Part shown: positions 1-12,332 of the stretch, in pieces | How positions within the stretch are numbered: position 1 is the stretch's first letter | Layout of the letters: each line of letters starts with the position of its first letter | Position numbers and translations under genes: made by a program | NCBI GenBank assembly: GCA_009885955.1 | Contig: VFJS01000049.1 | Coordinates: 44,091 to 108,090, forward strand | DNA length: 64,000 nucleotides | Direction: 5' to 3' | Origin: Spirochaetia bacterium | Lineage (GTDB): Bacteria; Spirochaetota; UBA4802; UBA5550 | The notes under the pieces: generated by a model | The model's database searches: none | The model's input: only the letters and a program-made list of their open reading frames with translations | Told to the model about the DNA's origin: nothing

Positions 1-298
1 GAAACAACCACTTATCAATTCTTTCTGTTTCAGGTGAATTTTCAAAATGAATTCCTCTGTTTCGAAATGTTGTACTCATCCAAAATTCATTATATTTTTT
101 TCTAAAAATTCCTGGTTTTGGATCTTCCTTAACATTATCCTGGCCTCTAAACCAGGGACATTCCATTTCATTATTCCTTTTCCATTTTTTTGTATCTTCC
201 TTAATAGCATTTAAATAATTACTTAAAGAAGTCACTTCAGTGCATGGAACATTTTTTGAATATTCTTTAATTAATTTATTCACGTTATCCCTCACCAT
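1..298 (-). CDS. FRG-domain protein, N-terminal part (truncated by window edge)
   Basis: Not in the supplied ORF list. Manual minus-strand translation from ATG at 298: MVRDNVNKLIKEYSKNVPCTEVTSLSNYLNAIKEDTKKWKRNNEMECPWFRGQDNVKEDPKPGIFRKKYNEFWMSTTFRNRGIHFENSPETERIDKWLF..., open to position 1. The WFRGQ...PGIFRK...E pattern is typical of FRG domains. Overlaps the end of the upstream helicase fragment by 7 nt. Confidence 0.8.
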   Translation of the reverse strand, partial: MVRDNVNKLIKEYSKNVPCTEVTSLSNYLNAIKEDTKKWKRNNEMECPWFRGQDNVKEDPKPGIFRKKYNEFWMSTTFRNRGIHFENSPETERIDKWLF

Positions 299-1527
299 CC
301 CTTCTGCAGATACTTCTTTTTCTCAAATGAATCCAGCACTGTTTCACAAGACTCCCAGTCTATATGCTCAACTGTGCTGTTACGGATTTCAAAGGGATGC
401 TGCTCTGGGACAGAATCAATTATACTCTTAGCGTACTCAATATCATTTTCCGCCACCTTAACCCATACATCTTCCAGGACATCAGGAATCTGGCCGAACA
501 TATCATATATACTCTTTAAGCGATTAGACAGCAGACTGTGTACCCTGTCTTCCACTGAATCCTTATATCTAAGATTATATATCCATACATCATCCATGAC
601 CTGCCCGATACGTTGGATCCTTCCTTTCCGCTGTTCCAGCCGAGTAGGGTTCCATGGAAGGTCAAGATTTATTAAAGTGCTCAATGTCTGGAGGTTGAGC
701 CCCTCTGAGGCAGCATCCGTACCTATGAGAAGCTTGAGCTCTCTCTTTTTTACAATACTCTTGATTTCTTCTCTGCTTTTTCTATGAAATTCCCCATTTA
801 CAAAAATTCCCGATTTCTCCCCACCGGCATATAATCCAATGTTCAAATCTTTTCTTTCATTAGAAATCATTCCAGCAATCCAATATGCAGAATCATAGTA
901 TTGTGTGAAGATTATACAGCCACGATTTATCCAGTCATCGCTAAATAATATTTTAAGAATTATATGATATTTAGGATCATACTGAGTATTGGTTTTTAAC
1001 TTTTCTACAAAAAGCTGAAGCTCCAGTTTTTCTGCATCAGTGAGTTGTTTGATATCGCTCTGGTCACTAGTATTCGATTTCCTTCCCCGTTTCTCAACCT
1101 CTTCCTCATATATCAGCGCTTCTACATCATCATCTTCATATTCCTCATATTCTTCAACTTTTCCCCATTCCCTCAACATCTTCTCAGCAGTTTTTTGTCC
1201 GGCAAACATAGAACTCCCTACTCTTTTCAAAAGAAGGGTCTTTAAAAAACCTCCGCTGGGTACCCGCTTTTTCAGCATATCGCAGAACTTTTCAGCATGC
1301 TCATAGGCTTCCTTTAAATATGCAGGCAATATAACTGCGCCATTTTCATCCTCTCCATACTCTTTAATTTCTGATAATACATTATTTTTCATAAACTCTT
1401 TTGACCTCACCCCGCCTCCGGCGCGCCCTCTCCTGGTCATTTCGGCTCCGCTCAATGACCGGCGAAGTCCAAACGACCGATAGGGAGTACCGCGCTTGCC
1501 TGTATTGTCCTCGTTAATTTTCTCCAC
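292..1527 (-). pseudogene. C-terminal fragment of SNF2/DEAD-like helicase (helicase C domain only)
   Basis: LLIGTDAASEGLNLQTLSTLINLDLPWNPTRLEQRKGRIQRIGQ is a helicase C-terminal domain (motifs V/VI). No Walker A or DEAH in the ORF. The first ~45 aa (TGKRGTPYRSFGLRRSLSGAEMTRRGRAGGGVRSKEF) read through a GC-rich intergenic-type repeat. Recognisable helicase sequence starts near MKNNVLSEIKEY (ATG at 1392). Confidence 0.65.
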
Positions 1528-1580
1528 ATTATATCAATCAATTGCCGAGGCCACGGACGGCCGAGTCAATACATCGGTAT

Positions 1581-2039
1581 TCATTTGCATTTCAACACCA
1601 AACTCACAATTGATACTATCAGGGCAATAATTGAAATAATCAAAGACAATAACCATGATTTATTCTCTCTTATAACTGTTGTAAGCCAGCATTTGTCAGT
1701 TGCTGCAAGAATACCTTTTTCTGTTATATCAATTTGATTATTTGAATCTTTAATAAATTCACTGCTGTATAATCTTAAAATGGCCCTTTTATATTTTGCA
1801 TCAATTCTTTTATCCTTCTTTTCAATACTGTTTAGTTTCTTGATTTTTAAAGAAATACAAAGTAATTCAAAAGAACCAAGTTGAAAGCCGTCTTTTCCAA
1901 AACGGTCTTGTATTTCGTACTTGGTTATACCTTTATAAGCGGGAGATTTCTTGTTCAATAATACTGCAAGTTCATCCGGCGCTTTCCAGTATTGATAAAT
2001 GACAATAAGGATTTTTCTTTCAAAAATACTTATTGTCAT
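1581..2039 (-). CDS. Small protein with C-terminal transmembrane segment (tail-anchored), coupled to the methyltransferase
   Basis: 152 aa; ATGA-type overlap with the stop of the upstream methyltransferase ORF (2036-2039). C-terminus WLLSLIISIIALIVSIVSLVLKCK is one hydrophobic helix. N-terminal part looks helical, possibly winged-helix-like. Confidence 0.7.
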   Translation of the reverse strand: MTISIFERKILIVIYQYWKAPDELAVLLNKKSPAYKGITKYEIQDRFGKDGFQLGSFELLCISLKIKKLNSIEKKDKRIDAKYKRAILRLYSSEFIKDSNNQIDITEKGILAATDKCWLTTVIRENKSWLLSLIISIIALIVSIVSLVLKCK

Positions 2040-5000
2040 TGGTTTTCGCCTTCAACGATTTTTATCTCCTCCGGGGTTAAACCATACAGCTCATACACCA
2101 TGCGGTCAATTTCCTTTTCGTATTCTTTGACCTTTGTTTGTTTGCTTGGGTTTTGTTGATAGCCGTCGGATTGGGTGAGGGAGAGGATTTTATTGACGAT
2201 ATTGATGAATGGTTTTTGGTCATTGATACTTTGATAAATAATTTTTGGTATTGGTATTTGTGTGATATAATAATCGATAAAATGCATTGTCCGAATAGCT
2301 CTATTATATATAAAATTATAAGCATACCAGTTGCAAAAAGTTGATTGATAGTAAGCAAGTAAGAACTTTTTATCGATTTTATTATCTTTAACTTTTATTT
2401 CAACGCAAGTATCGTTTATCAATCTACGGTTAGCATCATAAAATATGGTAATACGAATGTGTGGGCATGGATTTTGGATATGAGCAATAATTTCCTGAGC
2501 AACAATTTTGTCTTCTTGATATTGTGACAAATATTTTTTTGCGATTGTTCCATTTAAAAATCTTATTTCTGATTTTAAACCATAATTATTAATATCTATT
2601 CCTTTTACACAAGCAACATTATTCTTAGGTTCAAATGATAAGTACTTTGTAATATTTGAAATCCCTATCTCTCCTTTAATAATATTTTCAGTATTTTCTA
2701 TTGAATTTTTAAATAATTTATTCATTAAACCAATTGGATAAAGCCCTTTATATATTTGTGCATTTTTTAAATCTTTTGAAAATATTTCTTTAATCTCAAA
2801 ATAACCATGATTATTTATACTGTTATCATTTTGATTTAATGTGATTATAGAAACATTATTTTTTCTTTGATTCTCTTTTATTAAAGAAAAAGAAACTTGT
2901 TCAAGTAAGACATTTTCAAATGCTTTGCTAACATCCATTAAATAAATTAATGAATTTTTAAGCCAAAGCTCTCTAACTTCTTTCCAAGATTGCCCATAAA
3001 GCGATTTCTTAGGAATTATTAATGTTAATATTCCATTTTTACTTGTTAATTTTTGATTTGAAAAAATGATAAATAATTCTGCAATATCACCCGAGGGAAA
3101 TGAAATGGATTTACTTTTTCTAAAATATTTCTTCTCTTCTTGACTTAATACATTTCTAAAACCATAAGGTGGGTTACCAATCACCACATCGAACCCTCCT
3201 TTAGAATGAAAAACCTCAGAGAAATATACTTCAAAATCAAACTCCGAGTGCCCGTTTGTAATCTGACTTATAAGGCCATCAATTTGTTTTTTATATTCCT
3301 GTTTCTTCGTAGGATTTGTTTCATTGAAATATAGCGGTTTTAATTTTTCCAGTTCCTCAAATAATCCGCTATTGAAAAGATTCTTTTCCACTCCCAGTAA
3401 TGAATTCCCGCAAACAATTTTATAATCCAGGTTTGGCAACGGTTTTATCTGTTTTATATCATCTTCATCAACAACAAGCGAAAGCCAGAGCCTAAGTTTT
3501 GCTATTTCTATGGCACCTGGATCAATATCAACACCGTAGAGTGATTTTTCTATACAATCTCGTTTGAAATGATAAACAGTTCTTCCTTGATCTTTAATAA
3601 AAGGGGTAAGGGCATTACGTGCCCGCACAATCTCGCTCATCATGCCAACTGGAAAAGCACCACTACCGATTGCTGGGTCGCAGACTTTTATGCCGGCAAG
3701 TTTTTGATCTATATCATCTGCTGATTTTCTAATGTTTTCAGGAATTTTATAGTAATAAGTGCCGGTTTCTTTACCCGATTTCTCCACATGAGCTTCGTTT
3801 TCGCTTACATGCTCACCATAATGCACAAAGGTTTCTATTTCTTCTTTCAGAATTTCAGGTTTAGAATTATGCGCAATGGTTAAATTAAGTTGTCCGGTTT
3901 TACCTTCGTTACCGAACATGTCAAATTGTTCATCACCGAGTTTTTCATAGGTGACTATGCCCTTATTCAATTCGGTATAAAGGTAATTGATAAGACTTTG
4001 CTGGCACATGTAATGTACGATTTCGCGAGGGGTATAATATACGCCATACTGCTTGTTAAATTTACTCTCATCTCCTTTTTTTCCGCTTTTTAAAGCCTTT
4101 TTAAATTCAGCATAATTATCCGGACGTATGGCATTAAATTTTTCATAAGCCTTGCCGAGAAGTTCCGGGTCAATGGCGACTTCTTTTTCCAGAGGTTCGT
4201 CTTCTTTAACGGTAAAATTATACCGGTCGAATATATCAAGAATACCGTCCCCGATATCGCCTTCTTTGGTTTTTTTGGTATTTGAAAAAAGCTCATTGGG
4301 AATAAAAATATCTGTATGCACCCAGTCATAGTTGTTCATGGGATCAAAAAGTCCGCCGTTTAAGAAAGGAATCTTGCAGTTGAAGTGGCTGTAATAGTGG
4401 TCATCGTGACTGCGGTCTATACGAAGCGCATCGTAAAAAAGTGGTTCGAGTATATCATTGAAAAAGTTATTAAATGTGCTATGTTTCTTTTTAAAAAGTT
4501 CGCGTAAAAATTGTTTTGAACCGGTTCCCCATTCAGAGTCTCTTTGTACTCCAAACCACCCTTTTTTTTGCAGAAAATAAAGAAATACTATTTGCCCCAG
4601 GAGTTTTTTGGCAAAATCAACGGTATTTACTCCTTTTTTATCAAAGTCATTTTTAATGATAGTATCATCTTTTATGACCTTATCAAGTTCTTCTTTTGTT
4701 TTAAGGAAAAGATCACGGTATTCTATAAAAAATTTTTTTGTTACTTTTTCAATATTGAATGAATCTTCAATTTCTGACAATGTCGGGTTATGGTCGTCGT
4801 TTGTTATAAGGGGCATAAGACGGCTTTGGGCAGTATGGCTGTTTTCATGAGTACCTACAAGAAATGACCATCGCCGTGCCGGAGTAAAATCCTCTATTAT
4901 TTTTGTTTTACCGTCTTTTTTCTCAAACCGGTAATCCATTTTAACCAGTGAAAATCGCCAGTCATCGTTGTCTGGGGAAACAAAAGCAACCAGAGCGGCG

Positions 5001-5323
5001 TCCTTCATCTCACCACCACGGCTGCCGTTCAAATACTTTGCGATATAATTTCTCTGCATTGTCCGGGCTCGTTCAATGGATGTTTCTTTTTTAAGCTGGA
5101 CTATGAGGATGTCGATTTTATGTTCGCCGTCGTTGTATTTGCCGATTCTTTCAAGGGATGTTATATGCTCTTTAAATGAATCATGGATATAATTCCCCTT
5201 GTAGGTGAATGGAGCCTCTTCAATTTGATTGAGAAGATTTTTTATGAAATATGTAAATCTGGTTTTATCAAATGAATTTTCAAATGTGACTTTTACAATT
5301 TTTGCCGCTTGCTTTTTTTCCAT
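2036..5323 (-). CDS. Eco57I-like class I SAM-dependent DNA methyltransferase / putative type IIG restriction-modification enzyme
   Basis: 1095 aa; VCDPAIGSGAFPVGMMSEI (SAM-binding motif I) and VVIGNPPYGF (NPPY catalytic motif of N6-adenine MTases); long N-terminal domain (HKIDILIVQLKKETSIERARTMQRNYIAKYL) and C-terminal target-recognition-like region. Confidence 0.85.
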   Translation of the reverse strand: MEKKQAAKIVKVTFENSFDKTRFTYFIKNLLNQIEEAPFTYKGNYIHDSFKEHITSLERIGKYNDGEHKIDILIVQLKKETSIERARTMQRNYIAKYLNGSRGGEMKDAALVAFVSPDNDDWRFSLVKMDYRFEKKDGKTKIIEDFTPARRWSFLVGTHENSHTAQSRLMPLITNDDHNPTLSEIEDSFNIEKVTKKFFIEYRDLFLKTKEELDKVIKDDTIIKNDFDKKGVNTVDFAKKLLGQIVFLYFLQKKGWFGVQRDSEWGTGSKQFLRELFKKKHSTFNNFFNDILEPLFYDALRIDRSHDDHYYSHFNCKIPFLNGGLFDPMNNYDWVHTDIFIPNELFSNTKKTKEGDIGDGILDIFDRYNFTVKEDEPLEKEVAIDPELLGKAYEKFNAIRPDNYAEFKKALKSGKKGDESKFNKQYGVYYTPREIVHYMCQQSLINYLYTELNKGIVTYEKLGDEQFDMFGNEGKTGQLNLTIAHNSKPEILKEEIETFVHYGEHVSENEAHVEKSGKETGTYYYKIPENIRKSADDIDQKLAGIKVCDPAIGSGAFPVGMMSEIVRARNALTPFIKDQGRTVYHFKRDCIEKSLYGVDIDPGAIEIAKLRLWLSLVVDEDDIKQIKPLPNLDYKIVCGNSLLGVEKNLFNSGLFEELEKLKPLYFNETNPTKKQEYKKQIDGLISQITNGHSEFDFEVYFSEVFHSKGGFDVVIGNPPYGFRNVLSQEEKKYFRKSKSISFPSGDIAELFIIFSNQKLTSKNGILTLIIPKKSLYGQSWKEVRELWLKNSLIYLMDVSKAFENVLLEQVSFSLIKENQRKNNVSIITLNQNDNSINNHGYFEIKEIFSKDLKNAQIYKGLYPIGLMNKLFKNSIENTENIIKGEIGISNITKYLSFEPKNNVACVKGIDINNYGLKSEIRFLNGTIAKKYLSQYQEDKIVAQEIIAHIQNPCPHIRITIFYDANRRLINDTCVEIKVKDNKIDKKFLLAYYQSTFCNWYAYNFIYNRAIRTMHFIDYYITQIPIPKIIYQSINDQKPFINIVNKILSLTQSDGYQQNPSKQTKVKEYEKEIDRMVYELYGLTPEEIKIVEGENQ

Positions 5324-5439
5324 TATATTTTTCCTGCAATAGTTAAAAATACTTGACTTCCAGATACTTGTATTGATATTTTGTTAGTAAGTCCTTGAAC
5401 AGCGAAAGCAGGCTCCATGCCTTGTGCGGCGAAAGTCGC

Positions 5440-6228
5440 CTAGCTGTCTAAAGGACTTATTTTATTTATATCAAATGGATTTTTAGAGTTATAATAATTA
5501 TTTGGATATTTCGCTGTATCAAAAATATCCTGGATCAAGATTACTTTATCTTTAATAAAATTATAATATCTCATATCTTTTTTTTCATAAGTACGGTTTA
5601 AAGACCATAACAAATAGTCGATAACCTGTAGTAGCGCAATGTGAGACGGTTCTTGTATAAAAATTCTTATTGAATTATTGCTTTCACTCCCCCATTTTTT
5701 TTGAAAAGTTTCTTTCGATTTTTCAAGCGCAGATTTCATATTTTCTTCACGAAGCACATTCCCCATTTTAGAAAAATAAATATCAATTTCGGAATAGAGG
5801 TGAAGACGATTTTCAAATAGTTTTTCTACCATGTATTCATAAAACCGGGATGTTTTATTATTAAACTTTTTTTTGAATTGATCTGCATTTTTTCGCCCAA
5901 CAACAACAAAACATTGAATGTCCATTTTTATGATCTCTTTAAATACTTTTTCACGAACCTCCGGGCAGTCATCTTTTGCATGAAAGTGTTTAATTGATTT
6001 TGACAATGAGGGTATTAAGGAGAGATAACGATCATTTTGTAAATCATTTCTTATTTTTTCCAGGGCTTTATGAATTACATTAGGATTCTTACATTCCAGA
6101 AAACCCACAATAAAAACCCTGCTGGCTTTGCCGGTTTTAACAAGATCAATCCCTTTTTTGTCAAAAAAAACAGTATCCCCGGATTCATCTACATAGTAAT
6201 ACATTTTTCCCATTTCTACAGTTTTCAT
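5440..6228 (-). CDS. DUF3800 domain-containing protein
   Basis: 262 aa; YYYVDESGDTVFFDK at N-terminus, IDYLLWSLNRTYEKKDMRYYNFIKDKV near C-terminus, typical of DUF3800. 16 nt downstream of the helicase stop. Confidence 0.8.
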   Translation of the reverse strand: MKTVEMGKMYYYVDESGDTVFFDKKGIDLVKTGKASRVFIVGFLECKNPNVIHKALEKIRNDLQNDRYLSLIPSLSKSIKHFHAKDDCPEVREKVFKEIIKMDIQCFVVVGRKNADQFKKKFNNKTSRFYEYMVEKLFENRLHLYSEIDIYFSKMGNVLREENMKSALEKSKETFQKKWGSESNNSIRIFIQEPSHIALLQVIDYLLWSLNRTYEKKDMRYYNFIKDKVILIQDIFDTAKYPNNYYNSKNPFDINKISPLDS

Positions 6229-6244
6229 GATACGTCAATCCCGG

Positions 6245-9200
6245 TTATTTCCCACTCAGATACATTGAAAGAATGACTTCCCGTTTACCTGAGGTATGAG
6301 GGTTTTGTTCAACATAATGTCTTTCCAAAAGTCTTGAAGGTATATTGGTTTGTAATATTGCAAGGACTTTTAATGGATTTTGCATTTCAGCATCAAGTTC
6401 ATTAAGGGCTTTAAGCGTTTCTTTTGTTGTTTGCTTAGGAAGGCCGCCTTCTTCGAGACGTATAAATATTTTTTTTAAATACATTTCCTGATCGTCCGTA
6501 AGCTGCTTTGTTGTTTTAAAAACAGCTTTTATTATTTTTAAAATTTTGAAAGCACTGTCTTTCCCACGCCGAGATTGCGGGTCAATCATGTCTTCTGTTG
6601 TGGTAATGGTGAAAGCCTCTTTGTTTTTATCGAGAAAATCGTAAATATGTGCGGGTAATTTCTGACGTTTTTCTGTTTCTAAACATTCAATCATTTCAGC
6701 AGCGCTTAGAAAATCAAGTTCCTTTGTCTCAATGTTTGCTCCAGACATGAAAAACTTTTGTAATTTACCACGTCGGAAATAGGTAATAAGAAAATCTTTA
6801 TTATTTATATCGGTTTTAGCAGAGCGAGCTTTCTTGGGCAGTCGTTTAATTACCTCAAATAGATCAGGTTTTTTATCCCGTATTTCCTTAATAATTTGTA
6901 AATATTTCAATTCGCTTGATTCGTTCTCATCTTCTCCAGTAAGAGTCTTTTTAGAAATGAGCCGGTTGAAAAGTTCGTGAGACCCAACCGGTTCACCTTC
7001 GGTGAGAAGCGCAGCGTCTCCGCCGAGAAGTGTTAAAAATGCGTTGATTTTTGCTTCAGCGGCTTCTTTTAATTTTATCTGGTCATTCGATTGTTTCGTT
7101 GGAAAAAAGTTAAATGTGTAAATAACGTCAAAAATCGTATCAACACGGTTAATGCGGCCGACCCTTTGCATCATCCGAGTCGGGTTCCATGGAATGTCAT
7201 AATTGATTACAACATTGGAACGATGCAGGTTAACGCCTTCAGATAATACTTCGGTTGAAATAAGAATGCGGTAATCATCTTTCGGATGACGAGATTTAGC
7301 ATCAAAATTTTCAATGACTTTATCTCGAATAGCTTCGCTGGAACCACCTGAAAAACAAAGAGCGGTGTTCGGAAATGATTCGTTAATATGGGTTGAAAGA
7401 TATTCAGCCGTTTCCTTTGATTCGGTAAAAATTATGAGTTTATTTTCTTTAAGAATTTTGTTTTTATTGAGTTGTAATTTAAAAGATATAAGTTTGGGAT
7501 CACGATTGATTCTTTGCCATAATACTTTTATATTCTGTAATATTTTCAGATCGTTTTGTAAATCATTGATGAACTCTTCTCTGAATGAATCACTTGAATA
7601 TTTTTCAGCTTTACCCTCATCAATAAGCCGTTGGATAGCTACGTCATCATCATTTTCAAGAAACTCAAATATTTTATTTGTATGTTTCTTGCTTACATAA
7701 ACATTACCTTTTTCAAATTCCTTAATGAACATCTCATAGGAATAGATAAACCTGTCCACGGAATTCTTAAAAGCAAAAAAACTACTTTCAAGCCTCTTAA
7801 TGAGAAGAATTTTCATGAATTTTCCCATATTTTTTTGAGACTGTTCTTCAAGCTGGTCGAGACCACTTATGGAATACAACATTGGCATATAGCGGGCATA
7901 AGTAAATTTCTGAGATATCAGTTCAATTGTTGTGGTAAATATTTCGTCTTCTTGCTCATTAAGTTCATAGAATAATGGTTCCGGATTTTCCACTTCAGGG
8001 AATTTTAAATTCTGTGTTTTCAAATCATTGGAAAAAAATTTAACTATCTCGGTTCTGGTTCTTCGAACCATAAGGTACTTTAATACTTTTTCCCTTATTT
8101 CACGGGCATTTTCTTTTATTGTTTTGATGAATTCAGTGTAATCACGCTGGCGGTCAAGATTCTTTAGTTTCTTATCAAGACTGTTAAAGAAAGATTCAAG
8201 GTCTGGCAAGTTGGGTATAGTGCTTTTCCGGGAGTTTTGAAATAATTTAATTTGAGCTAATATATCTTTTGGTGAATTATTATATGGAGTAGCGGTAACC
8301 AGTATGACCCGTTTTCCTCGGCAAATCTCAGCTAATTTTTCATATGTTATTGTAGTTTCAGTTCTGAAACGGTGAGCCTCATCAATGATTATATTGGTAT
8401 ATTTTTCAGTACCTTTATTAATAATGTCATCGAGTTTTCCGATTGATTCAAAGTCTGCTGGTGTTCTGAAATCAGAAAAAGCATTAGGCCATGACCCTGG
8501 ATTATCTTTATTAAGTAGTACAGGAGGTGCAATAATTAATGTTCTACCATTAAGTTGTCCGGACAATAATGTTGCAATGTAAGTTTTACCAAGACCAACA
8601 ACGTCTGCAATAAAAACACCACCGTATTCTTCCAATATTTTTTTTGCATTTAATACGGCCTGTTCCTGATACTCAAGTTTCATGAAGTCTTGGGGTAAAT
8701 ACTTTGCAAATACTTCATCGGATTGACTCAATTCATCTTTGAAATATTCATAGAGTTGTTTTAAATAAAGCTGGTGAGGCGTAATATTTTGATTCAGCCA
8801 TGTTTTATTCTCAATTGTCTGGATATATTTTTCACTGACATCAACTGAATCCTTCCAGAGGTCTTCAAATTTATTTTTGGCGAAATGATAATCAGCGCTG
8901 TTTTTTAATTCGACATTAAATTCAAGATTATCTACAAGCCCAGCCTGTGTTAAATTACTTGAACCGGTTATTACCCTTCCTACATCTCTGTCTCCTTCTT
9001 TAAAACTTAATAGATAAAGTTTTGCATGAATGTTCGCACTTGGATAGGCTCTGATTTCAAGTTTTTTGCTGTGAATCCATTCAATAAATTTTACTACACC
9101 ACGCTCAACATTACTATTATCCTGGGAATCTTCCAGTTCTTTTTCAATATAACCCTCAATAACCTGTTTTGTTTCTGCATGAGAAAAAGGTAAGGATTGT

Positions 9201-9436
9201 TGTTGATCGTCGTTACCAACGGTTATTAAATCATATATTTTTCTGTCTGTACTAATTCCAATAAGGATTCTAATTTTTTCTGTATTTTCCAATGAATTAT
9301 AAATTGCATAAAATCCACTTGTAAAAAAGTACCCTACGAGGCAGTCAAAAAGTTTAGAATCTTTAATCAAGACTTCAAATCTTTCTTTAAGATGTTTGCC
9401 TTCCTCATTTGTTATAAAAGTTAGGTCTGTACTCAC
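6245..9436 (-). CDS. Phospholipase D-like domain + DEAH/SNF2 superfamily 2 helicase (defence-type)
   Basis: 1063 aa, GTG start. PLD/HKD-like IHAKLYLLSF...ITGSSNLTQAGL; Walker A VVGLGKTYIA; IIIDEAHRFR; STEVLSEGVNLHRSNVVINYDIPWNPTRMMQRVGRINR. Confidence 0.88.
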   Translation of the reverse strand: MSTDLTFITNEEGKHLKERFEVLIKDSKLFDCLVGYFFTSGFYAIYNSLENTEKIRILIGISTDRKIYDLITVGNDDQQQSLPFSHAETKQVIEGYIEKELEDSQDNSNVERGVVKFIEWIHSKKLEIRAYPSANIHAKLYLLSFKEGDRDVGRVITGSSNLTQAGLVDNLEFNVELKNSADYHFAKNKFEDLWKDSVDVSEKYIQTIENKTWLNQNITPHQLYLKQLYEYFKDELSQSDEVFAKYLPQDFMKLEYQEQAVLNAKKILEEYGGVFIADVVGLGKTYIATLLSGQLNGRTLIIAPPVLLNKDNPGSWPNAFSDFRTPADFESIGKLDDIINKGTEKYTNIIIDEAHRFRTETTITYEKLAEICRGKRVILVTATPYNNSPKDILAQIKLFQNSRKSTIPNLPDLESFFNSLDKKLKNLDRQRDYTEFIKTIKENAREIREKVLKYLMVRRTRTEIVKFFSNDLKTQNLKFPEVENPEPLFYELNEQEDEIFTTTIELISQKFTYARYMPMLYSISGLDQLEEQSQKNMGKFMKILLIKRLESSFFAFKNSVDRFIYSYEMFIKEFEKGNVYVSKKHTNKIFEFLENDDDVAIQRLIDEGKAEKYSSDSFREEFINDLQNDLKILQNIKVLWQRINRDPKLISFKLQLNKNKILKENKLIIFTESKETAEYLSTHINESFPNTALCFSGGSSEAIRDKVIENFDAKSRHPKDDYRILISTEVLSEGVNLHRSNVVINYDIPWNPTRMMQRVGRINRVDTIFDVIYTFNFFPTKQSNDQIKLKEAAEAKINAFLTLLGGDAALLTEGEPVGSHELFNRLISKKTLTGEDENESSELKYLQIIKEIRDKKPDLFEVIKRLPKKARSAKTDINNKDFLITYFRRGKLQKFFMSGANIETKELDFLSAAEMIECLETEKRQKLPAHIYDFLDKNKEAFTITTTEDMIDPQSRRGKDSAFKILKIIKAVFKTTKQLTDDQEMYLKKIFIRLEEGGLPKQTTKETLKALNELDAEMQNPLKVLAILQTNIPSRLLERHYVEQNPHTSGKREVILSMYLSGK

Positions 9437-9613
9437 GTTTTACCTAAAAAAATTTACATGCCATTTAGTAATTTGAATTATGAACCTTATCAAAAGTACA
9501 TGGGTTTATTTAATAATAATTTAGAAATCATAACATGACAACCATTTGTCAAGCCTTATAAATATTTTTAATGAGTACCATATCATGATGTTATTAATGC
9601 ACCCTCCCCCCCC

Positions 9614-10013: not shown

Positions 10014-11180
10014 TCATTCAACCAGCTTTAAACCTGAGCAGCACTTTTTATACTTTTTGCCGCTGCCGCAGGGGCAGGGATCATTCCTTCCGGTTTTTTC
10101 CTTAAATTTATTTTCAGCGTTCTTCAGATTTAAACTGTCATTATAGCTCTTTATAAATTCATCCATGGCTTTTCTCTCCATTATATCAACACCCGCCTTT
10201 ACCGCTTCATTCAATAAAGTCTTCCCGATGCTCCAGTTTGCGGGATTATTTGAATTTCTTATCAGCTTTTTTTCAATCCCCAAGAGCTTCCCCGCAATCA
10301 TACGGCCGTCCTTCACGATGCCTTCGTCTGAAAGAAAATTGAAAAAGGATGCCAGCACCGGCGCCACGGATCTGAAAATATCATCATCATTACTCATGAT
10401 TTTCCCGGGCATGATATTAAGGCAGCAGTCCAATGTATCATTAGCATTCCATTCCTGCGTCGCAGAGAGATATTGAAGGTACATGAAATCGCCGAAAGAT
10501 GTAATGATAAACTCGGCATGATCCTTGCAATCAGCAGAGAGGCCGTTATAATCCGGACCCTTCATAAATTTTTTTATATATTTTTTAATGGCCTTCTGAA
10601 TAACTTTAAAGTCTTTCTCGGAATATTGTTTTTCATATTTATCATATGCTCCCCATTTATCTTCATCAAGAACCAGGCAGTCGACAGTAGTTTTCAAATG
10701 AAATGCCATAGTCAGCAGCGCTTCATTCCGTATATTTCCCGTGTAATTATCGGGACTGTTGAACATGAGGCCCATCAAAAAATTGATTAAATGCGGCTGA
10801 TCATTGAATTTATAGCATAAATCATAAAAATGTTTATCGACTTTTTTTTTCGATGTGAGGGTCTTCTCAAACAGGTTAAAATTTCTCTCCAGTTGAGCCT
10901 CTAAAAAATTATCGCTGATTTTCTGGCCGCGCCTGCCGTTTTCCCTGATTATATGCCATCCGATAAGATTGGCGGTTATCAATAACTCCTGTTCATCCTG
11001 ATTCAGTTCGCTCTCACTCATATCATCATTTAAAAAAAGAAAATCATAAACGGCAGGTTCTTCCCTGCGCAATTTTTTGATTAGACTCCTCAAAGGATCT
11101 TTATGCTTTTTTTCCATATCCGCAATGGCCATGTTGATATCATCAGGCATTATTAAATTCATGTTTTCTTCCTTCTTCAA
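10014..11180 (-). CDS. SEC-C metal-binding domain-containing protein
   Basis: C-terminal KTGRNDPCPCGSGKKYKKCCSG is a canonical SEC-C motif. Confidence 0.85.
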   Translation of the reverse strand: MKKEENMNLIMPDDINMAIADMEKKHKDPLRSLIKKLRREEPAVYDFLFLNDDMSESELNQDEQELLITANLIGWHIIRENGRRGQKISDNFLEAQLERNFNLFEKTLTSKKKVDKHFYDLCYKFNDQPHLINFLMGLMFNSPDNYTGNIRNEALLTMAFHLKTTVDCLVLDEDKWGAYDKYEKQYSEKDFKVIQKAIKKYIKKFMKGPDYNGLSADCKDHAEFIITSFGDFMYLQYLSATQEWNANDTLDCCLNIMPGKIMSNDDDIFRSVAPVLASFFNFLSDEGIVKDGRMIAGKLLGIEKKLIRNSNNPANWSIGKTLLNEAVKAGVDIMERKAMDEFIKSYNDSLNLKNAENKFKEKTGRNDPCPCGSGKKYKKCCSGLKLVE

Positions 11181-11467
11181 TCTTCTCTTTTCAGCAAACC
11201 AGGAGCCACTTTCCAGTTTTCCCCGTCATCCGTTCTGATGGATACGGTTTTTTTGTGCATTGCTGTGATAGTCCCGGTTTTAACACTCCCATAAGGACCG
11301 GGGAAATTAATTCTTTGATGTATATGATATTCGGCCATTTTCTCGCTGGAACGGACCTGTGATAATATTTTAAGCCGTTCGACAATCAGGCGGTTCAAGT
11401 ACAATAAATCTTTTTCATTTAATTTCTTTATAAAGTCTTCTATTCGCGGTATGTCAATATCCTTCAT
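11177..11467 (-). CDS. Hypothetical protein, ATGA-coupled to SEC-C gene
   Basis: 96 aa ORF overlapping the SEC-C gene start by 4 nt; no recognised domain. Confidence 0.6.
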   Translation of the reverse strand: MKDIDIPRIEDFIKKLNEKDLLYLNRLIVERLKILSQVRSSEKMAEYHIHQRINFPGPYGSVKTGTITAMHKKTVSIRTDDGENWKVAPGLLKRED

Positions 11468-11719
11468 AGCTTTTCTCCATTATTAATCGAATATAAATTG
11501 AAACATCTTCAGGAAATTATTGATAATCTGTATCAAAATATAAATTATTTATGCAAGCTATTTATTATTTTGAATAAAGGCAATCTCATATACGGAAACC
11601 TCGAATAATTCAATTTTGTCTTACCCTTGAGTACTCCACTTTAATCATCAAAATTAATTCTTGACATATCAGTCTATTTAATGTACCATATTCAGACTGT
11701 TAAAATAAAGGAATATAAT

Positions 11720-11995
11720 ATGAAAATTAAAGATGATATCAGACCTATATCCTATATAAAGTCTCATACTGCGGATATATTAAATCAGGTGAACAGAACA
11801 CACAGGCCGGTATATGTCACGCAGAACGGGGAAGCCCGTGCCGTTCTTCTCGACACCGAAACCTATGAAAAAATGAATAATGCCATCGGCCTTTTAAAAT
11901 TGATTGCCCATAGTGAAAAGGATATTCTGGAAAAAAATTATTCCAGACAGGAGAATTTTTTTCCATTAATAGAAAAACGGCTGTCTAAAAAATAG
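11720..11995 (+). CDS. Type II TA antitoxin, Phd/YefM family
   Basis: IRPISYIKSHTADILNQVNRTHRPVYVTQNGEARAVLLDTETYEKM is Phd/YefM-like; followed 7 nt later by a ParE/RelE toxin. Start placed at the internal ATG (MKIKDD). Confidence 0.85.
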   Translation: MKIKDDIRPISYIKSHTADILNQVNRTHRPVYVTQNGEARAVLLDTETYEKMNNAIGLLKLIAHSEKDILEKNYSRQENFFPLIEKRLSKK

Positions 11996-12002
11996 AGCTT
12001 CA

Positions 12003-12332
12003 ATGCCCTCAAAATATGATGTTTTTTGGACTCAGACTGCTCAGGAAGACCTGATTACAATCATTGATTATATCTCGGCAGACAGCATAGATAATGCACT
12101 GAATATTTTTAACAATATTAAAAAACAAACCAGCAAATTAAATAAATTTCCAGCAAGGGGGCGTATAGTCCCGGAATTAAAATATCAGAATATAAATAAA
12201 TACAGGGAAATAATAATCTCTCCCTGGAGAATAATATATAAAATTGAAAATGATTCAGTCTTTGTCTTTGCGGTTTTTGACGGCAGAAGAAATTTAGAGG
12301 ACCTATTACTCCAAAGGCTGCTGATAAAATAA
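12003..12332 (+). CDS. Type II TA toxin, RelE/ParE family
   Basis: 109 aa; FWTQTAQEDLITIIDYISADSIDNALNIF...PARGRIVPELKYQNINKYREIIISPWRIIYKI. Confidence 0.85.
   Translation: MPSKYDVFWTQTAQEDLITIIDYISADSIDNALNIFNNIKKQTSKLNKFPARGRIVPELKYQNINKYREIIISPWRIIYKIENDSVFVFAVFDGRRNLEDLLLQRLLIK

Follow-up and report, generated by a model that had tools for sequence, protein, structure and literature searches.

Several described defense systems share features with the locus examined here; the nearest in print are Type-2 BR systems and the paired helicase and methyltransferase of DISARM and ARMADA. Type-2 BR systems, which overlap with Hma, carry an HKD (PLD) domain N-terminal to a Swi2/Snf2 helicase together with an N6-methyltransferase, and have Schlafen, MNT-HEPN, and other nuclease genes embedded near this core (PMC12839542). 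Beyond this core, BR systems depend on a DUF499 AAA+ ATPase and, in Type 2, on DUF3780 (PMC12839542). In DISARM class 1 (DrmD and DrmMI) and ARMADA (ArmA and ArmB; PMC12458937), a SNF2-type helicase gene lies beside a gene for a PglX-like adenine methyltransferase. CglI and NgoAVII comprise a PLD nuclease, an SF2 ATPase, and a methyltransferase, and perform ATP-dependent restriction in which nuclease and ATPase are coupled and depend on extensive ATP hydrolysis (PMC4267653). SauUSI is a single-chain fusion of a PLD nuclease with an SF2 translocase, but it has its own SRA-fold recognition domain, attacks modified DNA, and lacks a methyltransferase partner (PMC7913695). In PbeA and CxC-ABC ATPase systems, a PLD-SF2 helicase fusion stands beside a DNA-modification module (PMC6459918, PMC10853773).

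The locus lies at the start of a 64,000-nt stretch of spirochaete DNA (the window; Table 1). A sequence-only reading had described it as a candidate defense operon of six tightly spaced minus-strand genes in an AT-rich block. The layout was borne out, with all open reading frames placed as claimed and a G+C content of 0.343 in the block versus 0.429 in the remaining window. Coordinates and domain matches (PLDc_2, SNF2, and helicase C; PF12686) likewise agreed with a GTG-start PLD-helicase gene (hereafter HEL) 16 nt from a DUF3800 gene, which is separated from the methyltransferase gene by 116 nt. The methyltransferase contained Eco57I and TaqI_C domains and a conserved NPPY motif. The promoter-like site upstream of HEL is of a kind common by chance (62 found versus 45 expected), and no mobile-element boundary was apparent from the inverted and direct repeats surrounding the block.

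Table 1. Features of the locus in window coordinates.
Feature	Position	Strand	Size and basis
HEL: PLD (HKD) nuclease domain and SNF2/SF2 helicase, core gene 1	6245..9436	-	1063 aa, GTG start; ORF call, domain matches
DUF3800 gene, predicted RNase HII-like fold, slot guest	5440..6228	-	262 aa; PF12686, DUF3800_VII, AF2/Foldseek
Eco57I/PglX-like N6-adenine methyltransferase with C-terminal TaqI-like specificity region, core gene 2	2036..5323	-	1095 aa; PDLC03596, Eco57I, TaqI_C
152-aa protein	1581..2039	-	ORF call; 4-nt ATGA overlap with methyltransferase gene
Helicase C-terminal fragment	292..1527	-	helicase C domain match
FRG gene	off window edge	-	overlaps helicase fragment by 7 nt; FRG domain match
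Promoter-like site TTGTCA-17-TATTAT, 10/12 consensus match	9513..9541	-	upstream of HEL; consensus match only

The six block genes, two genes upstream, and three genes downstream were scanned with PADLOC, Pfam, and NCBIfam. DrmA/DrmB, PglZ/BrxC, and HsdS/HsdM had gone unrecognized in the sequence-only reading, and the scans found none of them. For DISARM, matches to DrmA covered the generic helicase core only, neither DUF1998 nor DrmB occurred among the scanned genes, and HEL failed the DrmD model NF038317 (129.2 bits, cut-off 610). Unlike DISARM class 1 and ARMADA, the window locus is without a YprA-family helicase (DrmA/ArmC) and without DrmB/DUF1998, and HEL has a PLD domain of its own. For BREX, the scanned neighbors included no PglZ, BrxC/DUF499, BrxA, or BrxB, and the methyltransferase scored 59.7 bits against BREX-1 PglX (cut-off 500). 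The HKD-Swi2/Snf2 helicase and N6-methyltransferase of Type-2 BR and Hma are both present, but no DUF499 ATPase or DUF3780 was found among the scanned neighbors, the core genes are directly adjacent in many homologous loci, and the PADLOC HmaA model scored HEL at only 83 bits. In CglI and NgoAVII, the PLD and B3 DNA-binding domains are separate from the ATPase and recognition resides in the nuclease subunit (PMC4267653), whereas here PLD and helicase are fused, specificity appears to lie with the methyltransferase, and no B3 protein was found among the neighbors. The RE_NgoFVII model also stayed below its cut-off on this block (21.2 versus 23.8). The partners of PbeA and CxC-ABC systems (CxC ABC ATPase, DndE, a small protein, and sometimes Dnd) are absent from the window locus, as are HsdS, HsdM, and HsdR families of Type I restriction-modification (R-M) from the block genes. 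Membership in DISARM, BREX, BR/Hma, and CglI was rejected for components missing among the scanned genes. Neither the PADLOC models nor the literature open to full-text search gave a name for the HEL-methyltransferase pair or a description of it alone; the pair is apparently unnamed, although it may have a name elsewhere.

Gene neighborhoods indicate that the conserved unit is a widespread two-gene core of HEL and methyltransferase, smaller than the proposed operon. We searched a genome collection with a profile made from an alignment of HEL and four same-phylum relatives. The best 80 of at least 531 candidate genome stretches, whose record titles name Syntrophaceae, Nitrospirae, Chloroflexi, Bacteroidetes, Patescibacteria, archaea, and others, were combined with six viral contigs to give 86 HEL loci. 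The same methyltransferase followed HEL on the same strand in 69 of these 86. Contig edges interrupted 13 of the 17 loci without a paired methyltransferase. Two loci (L018, L094) showed an NYN-like gene and a toxin-antitoxin-like pair (assigned by eye) after HEL, followed by the contig end, and in L075 the contig stopped 339 nt past HEL. Only one locus (L059) was without a methyltransferase across 10 kb downstream; its contig begins 190 nt upstream of HEL.

A scan of viral contigs anchored on the methyltransferase placed HEL adjacent or one gene off in 15 of 15 loci, with HEL reduced to a 77-aa remnant in L172 and gene order reversed in L178 and L181. The two scans are partly dependent, as several viral contigs are common to both. 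In the phylum (395 genomes), 11 genomes had a HEL orthologue (>1000 bits) and 8 had the methyltransferase. Seven genomes carried both, adjacent in every case (hypergeometric P = 9e-12), and the eighth methyltransferase match was a fragment next to a transposase-like gene on a 2.7-kb contig. A related methyltransferase was also adjacent or one gene off for a HEL relative of 65% identity (G069) and for relatives at only 30-38% identity, in seven phylum genomes with enough contig, Prevotella, and Parabacteroides. More distant cyanobacterial, Thermus, and Deinococcus plasmids had the methyltransferase first and other genes in between.

Complete pairs on contigs classed as viral in IMG/VR (L096-L100, L170-L183) suggest that mobile elements or prophages may carry the system. 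The case for HEL as mainly a phage gene was weak, resting on three phage records at ~25-27% identity and six putative viral contigs with close copies. A Sulfitobacter dubius plasmid has what seems to be a decayed copy, in which fragments (L145:3027-4700) from the C-terminal part of HEL (43% identity) and the beginning of a methyltransferase still adjoin. One distant spirochaete pair has, after its methyltransferase, a 1047-aa protein (L149:1226-4369) that matched nothing in Pfam or PADLOC.

Divergence within the pair was compared across 52 pairs. Distances between HELs correlated with those between methyltransferase cores (Spearman 0.73), a value reached by 0 of 1000 permutations. Distances between C-terminal specificity regions, by comparison, were uncoupled from HEL (-0.02) and even from their own core (-0.06). 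Mean identities were 61% for HEL, 58% for the methyltransferase core, and 22% for the specificity region, and HELs 86-89% identical may carry specificity regions only 14-21% identical. This pattern is that expected of a predicted exchangeable recognition region on a fixed enzyme. The correlation of HEL with the core is no proof of a complex, because shared operon inheritance contributes to it. Of the sequence-only reading, the PLD-helicase and the methyltransferase are retained as a conserved and co-diverging R-M-like pair that fits none of the named multi-gene systems examined, as that reading had suspected; the operon of four to six genes is not retained.

HEL comprised PLDc_2, SNF2, and Helicase_C domains (Pfam/PADLOC), with PHROG 26785 spanning residues 4-1003. 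Its best PADLOC model was C3a139 (HKD+Snf2, 148 bits), while NF042964/PADLOC PLD_Helicase gave 134.8 bits, under the cut-off of 1100. The PLD residues H137, K139, G158, S159, N161, and N174 were invariant in 78 of 78 HEL homologues, and the Walker A (GLGKT) and motif VI (QR.GR) residues showed no variation across the same 78. HEL has one PLD motif, like BfiI and CglI, and would have to dimerize to cut. We infer that cutting lies in HEL.

The PADLOC match of the methyltransferase was REase_MTase_IIG (PDLC03596, 1133 bits), and the protein holds methyltransferase and specificity region in one chain, a type IIG feature. The SAM motif was kept in 53 of 53 homologues and NPP in 51 of 52. Foldseek neighbors of its model were CamA, BrxX/PglX, M.BseCI, MmeI, and BpuSI. 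In the AF2 model (mean pLDDT 79), the strands and helices of the N-terminal ~160 residues succeed one another much as in restriction enzymes, by our reading of the predicted secondary structure, and D71, R87, and R91 were conserved in this nuclease-like domain. In contrast to type IIG enzymes, canonical PD-(D/E)xK residues were not conserved (D71 in 48/52, but E76 in 1/52 and K78 in 19/52), and a helicase partner was nearly always present. As the canonical nuclease motif is not conserved, the type IIG label is probably misleading for this protein. A non-canonical (migrated) nuclease active site in the modeled N-terminal domain is possible. The DISARM-like logic invoked in the sequence-only reading holds as an analogy between helicase-methyltransferase arrangements and no further.

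Alternatively, the 1095-aa protein could be a self-contained type IIG enzyme, responsible for both cutting and methylation, with HEL a separate ATP-dependent nuclease alongside it or a processor of its products. The PADLOC score, the structural likeness to BpuSI and MmeI, and the nuclease-like N-terminal domain with its well-kept D71 lend this reading some credit, yet we consider it unlikely. The canonical E and K are missing in most homologues, and a self-sufficient enzyme would be expected in neighborhoods independent of HEL, of which the viral-contig scan returned none.

Exclusion without cutting, as in BREX, appears somewhat less probable still. In this case HEL would block phage DNA as a motor or remodeler, with the methyltransferase serving as a PglX-like sensor. 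The BrxX/PglX match does cover most of the length of the methyltransferase model, and helicase-methyltransferase pairs are known in BREX type 3, DISARM, ARMADA, and BR (PMC12839542, PMC12458937). Set against this, the BREX components listed above are missing among the scanned neighbors, and the invariance of the PLD catalytic residues argues for cutting.

Between the two core genes lies a variable slot. In 37 of the 69 pairs, the core genes were directly adjacent (gap of -20 to +61 nt). About 25 pairs held an identifiable guest: Schlafen AlbA_2 (9), Bro-N/KilA-N (7), Fic (2), NYN (2), MNT-HepT (2), AbiEii (1), DUF1016/YhcG (1), or DUF559 (1). Guests were assigned by scanning representatives with Pfam and PADLOC and the others via their BLAST cluster. 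The distant Prevotella pair, too, had a Schlafen gene in the slot. Mapped on the HEL tree, slot state turned over repeatedly, with at least 21 changes in presence or absence and 24 by type. Genes embedded in R-M and BREX loci have been proposed as back-up suicide effectors (PMC3710099, PMC12839542), and they are of the same kinds (Schlafen, HEPN-MNT, Fic/Doc, and RhuM-like); here they occupy one fixed slot of the pair.

In the window, this slot holds the DUF3800 gene. Its product passed PF12686 (47.4 bits, cut-off 21), D14 and E15 (the DE motif) were invariant, and its AF2 model (pLDDT 86.7) matched RNase HII in Foldseek (E 6.8e-06, TM-score 0.4-0.5). The modeled fold agrees with RNase H-fold DUF3800 accessories published for Cas12a2/V-A2 and VI-F loci (PMC10910872, PMC12669027). 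Searching by sequence for solved structures of DUF3800 proteins yielded no useful match, and DUF3800 appeared with restriction in the literature in passing mentions only. Co-occurrence of DUF3800 with the core genes, which the sequence-only reading had raised as the test of a conserved operon, was not observed: no relative of the window protein was detected in the 86 HEL neighborhoods (phmmer E <= 1e-5, a search blind to remote DUF3800 subfamilies), where the slot was empty or held other cargo. Its closest relatives (58-65% identity) were located away from the pair. By these comparisons, DUF3800 is best described as cargo, one of many interchangeable occupants of the slot.

The other block genes likewise lie outside the system and were not recurrent neighbors of the pair. 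The 152-aa protein had no family match in PADLOC, Pfam, or NCBIfam. Its only relative among 298 genomes was in one other genome, away from the pair and with an internal TGA in the match. The ATGA coupling claimed for its gene is real, while its "tail anchor" is a single hydrophobic C-terminal stretch read from sequence. The helicase C-terminal fragment is present with its helicase C domain, but it belongs to a different PLD-helicase family than HEL, corresponding to the last ~340 positions of NF042964 (555-895; 469 bits, cut-off 1100). A dispersed repeat (CGGTCATTGAGCGGAGCCGAAATGACC) at 1430-1510 overlaps its first ~50 codons, and this repeat has 8 near-copies in the genome compared with none for a reversed control pattern. 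As the fragment is without the Walker A lobe and truncated at the repeat, it is a remnant; a working subunit was rejected for want of the PLD domain and N-terminal helicase lobe. The FRG protein, 270 aa in full in the source contig, falls in the candidate family PDC-S15. An operon of four to six genes with DUF3800, the tail-anchored protein, the helicase fragment, and FRG all as working components is highly improbable, since only the tight same-strand spacing in the window (16 nt, ATGA overlap, 7-nt overlap) speaks for it, against slots that are empty or filled by unrelated genes, DUF3800 and 152-aa relatives that lie elsewhere, and a truncated helicase.

Further genes were observed around the block. 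Left of the window on the same contig, two genes come after FRG (L008:13604-15486), one for an AAA_21 ATPase of 419 aa and one of 225 aa, and these match PADLOC mad3 and mad4 (also HEC-01A/B); heme synthesis genes come next. By these matches, a second predicted defense-like pair adjoins the block. Upstream of the block, a SEC-C motif protein (388 aa, PF02810) is coupled to a 96-aa gene (10014-11467). Two small plus-strand genes (11681-12332) resemble, by eye, a Phd/YefM-type antitoxin and a ParE/RelE-type toxin.

HEL and the methyltransferase are probably partner subunits of a compact R-M-like system driven by ATP, with DUF3800 as a slot guest that would act as a back-up nuclease. We favor this because the pair is retained (69/86 HEL loci, 15/15 viral loci, and 7/8 phylum genomes) even at low HEL identity, because HEL and core diverge together while the specificity region does not follow, and because the PLD, Walker A, and motif VI residues of HEL and the SAM and NPPY motifs of the methyltransferase are conserved while its canonical nuclease residues are not. 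The variable slot with its known defense-type genes adds to this, as does the precedent for PLD-SF2 ATPase coupling in CglI/NgoAVII (PMC4267653) and SauUSI (PMC7913695). Shared operon inheritance as a source of correlated divergence and the nuclease-like topology of the methyltransferase N-terminal domain count against it, as does coverage of the genome loci by the best 80 of at least 531. In the proposed mechanism, the methyltransferase would bind its DNA sequence via the exchangeable C-terminal specificity region and modify host DNA, the likeliest mark being N6-methyladenine. On incoming DNA, a site without this methylation would recruit or license HEL, whose SNF2 motor would move on DNA using ATP and whose PLD active site, working as a dimer, would cut it. 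Once the core is defeated, DUF3800 may serve as a back-up nuclease, probably on RNA.

The chances seem evenly balanced that the pair represents a widespread, unnamed class of ATP-dependent R-M, in which cutting has moved from the "type IIG" chain to a PLD-SNF2 motor and an exchange slot houses back-up effectors, with DUF3800 as a new RNase H-fold example. PADLOC annotation would list only a solitary type IIG enzyme here and leave the helicase without clear assignment, though both genes are nearly always found together. The pair resembles a minimal version of the helicase-methyltransferase core common to DISARM, BREX type 3, ARMADA, and BR systems, and as such could reveal the role of this core without extra parts. 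The contents of the slot provide a ready list of candidate back-up effectors, and DUF3800 gains a testable role among them.
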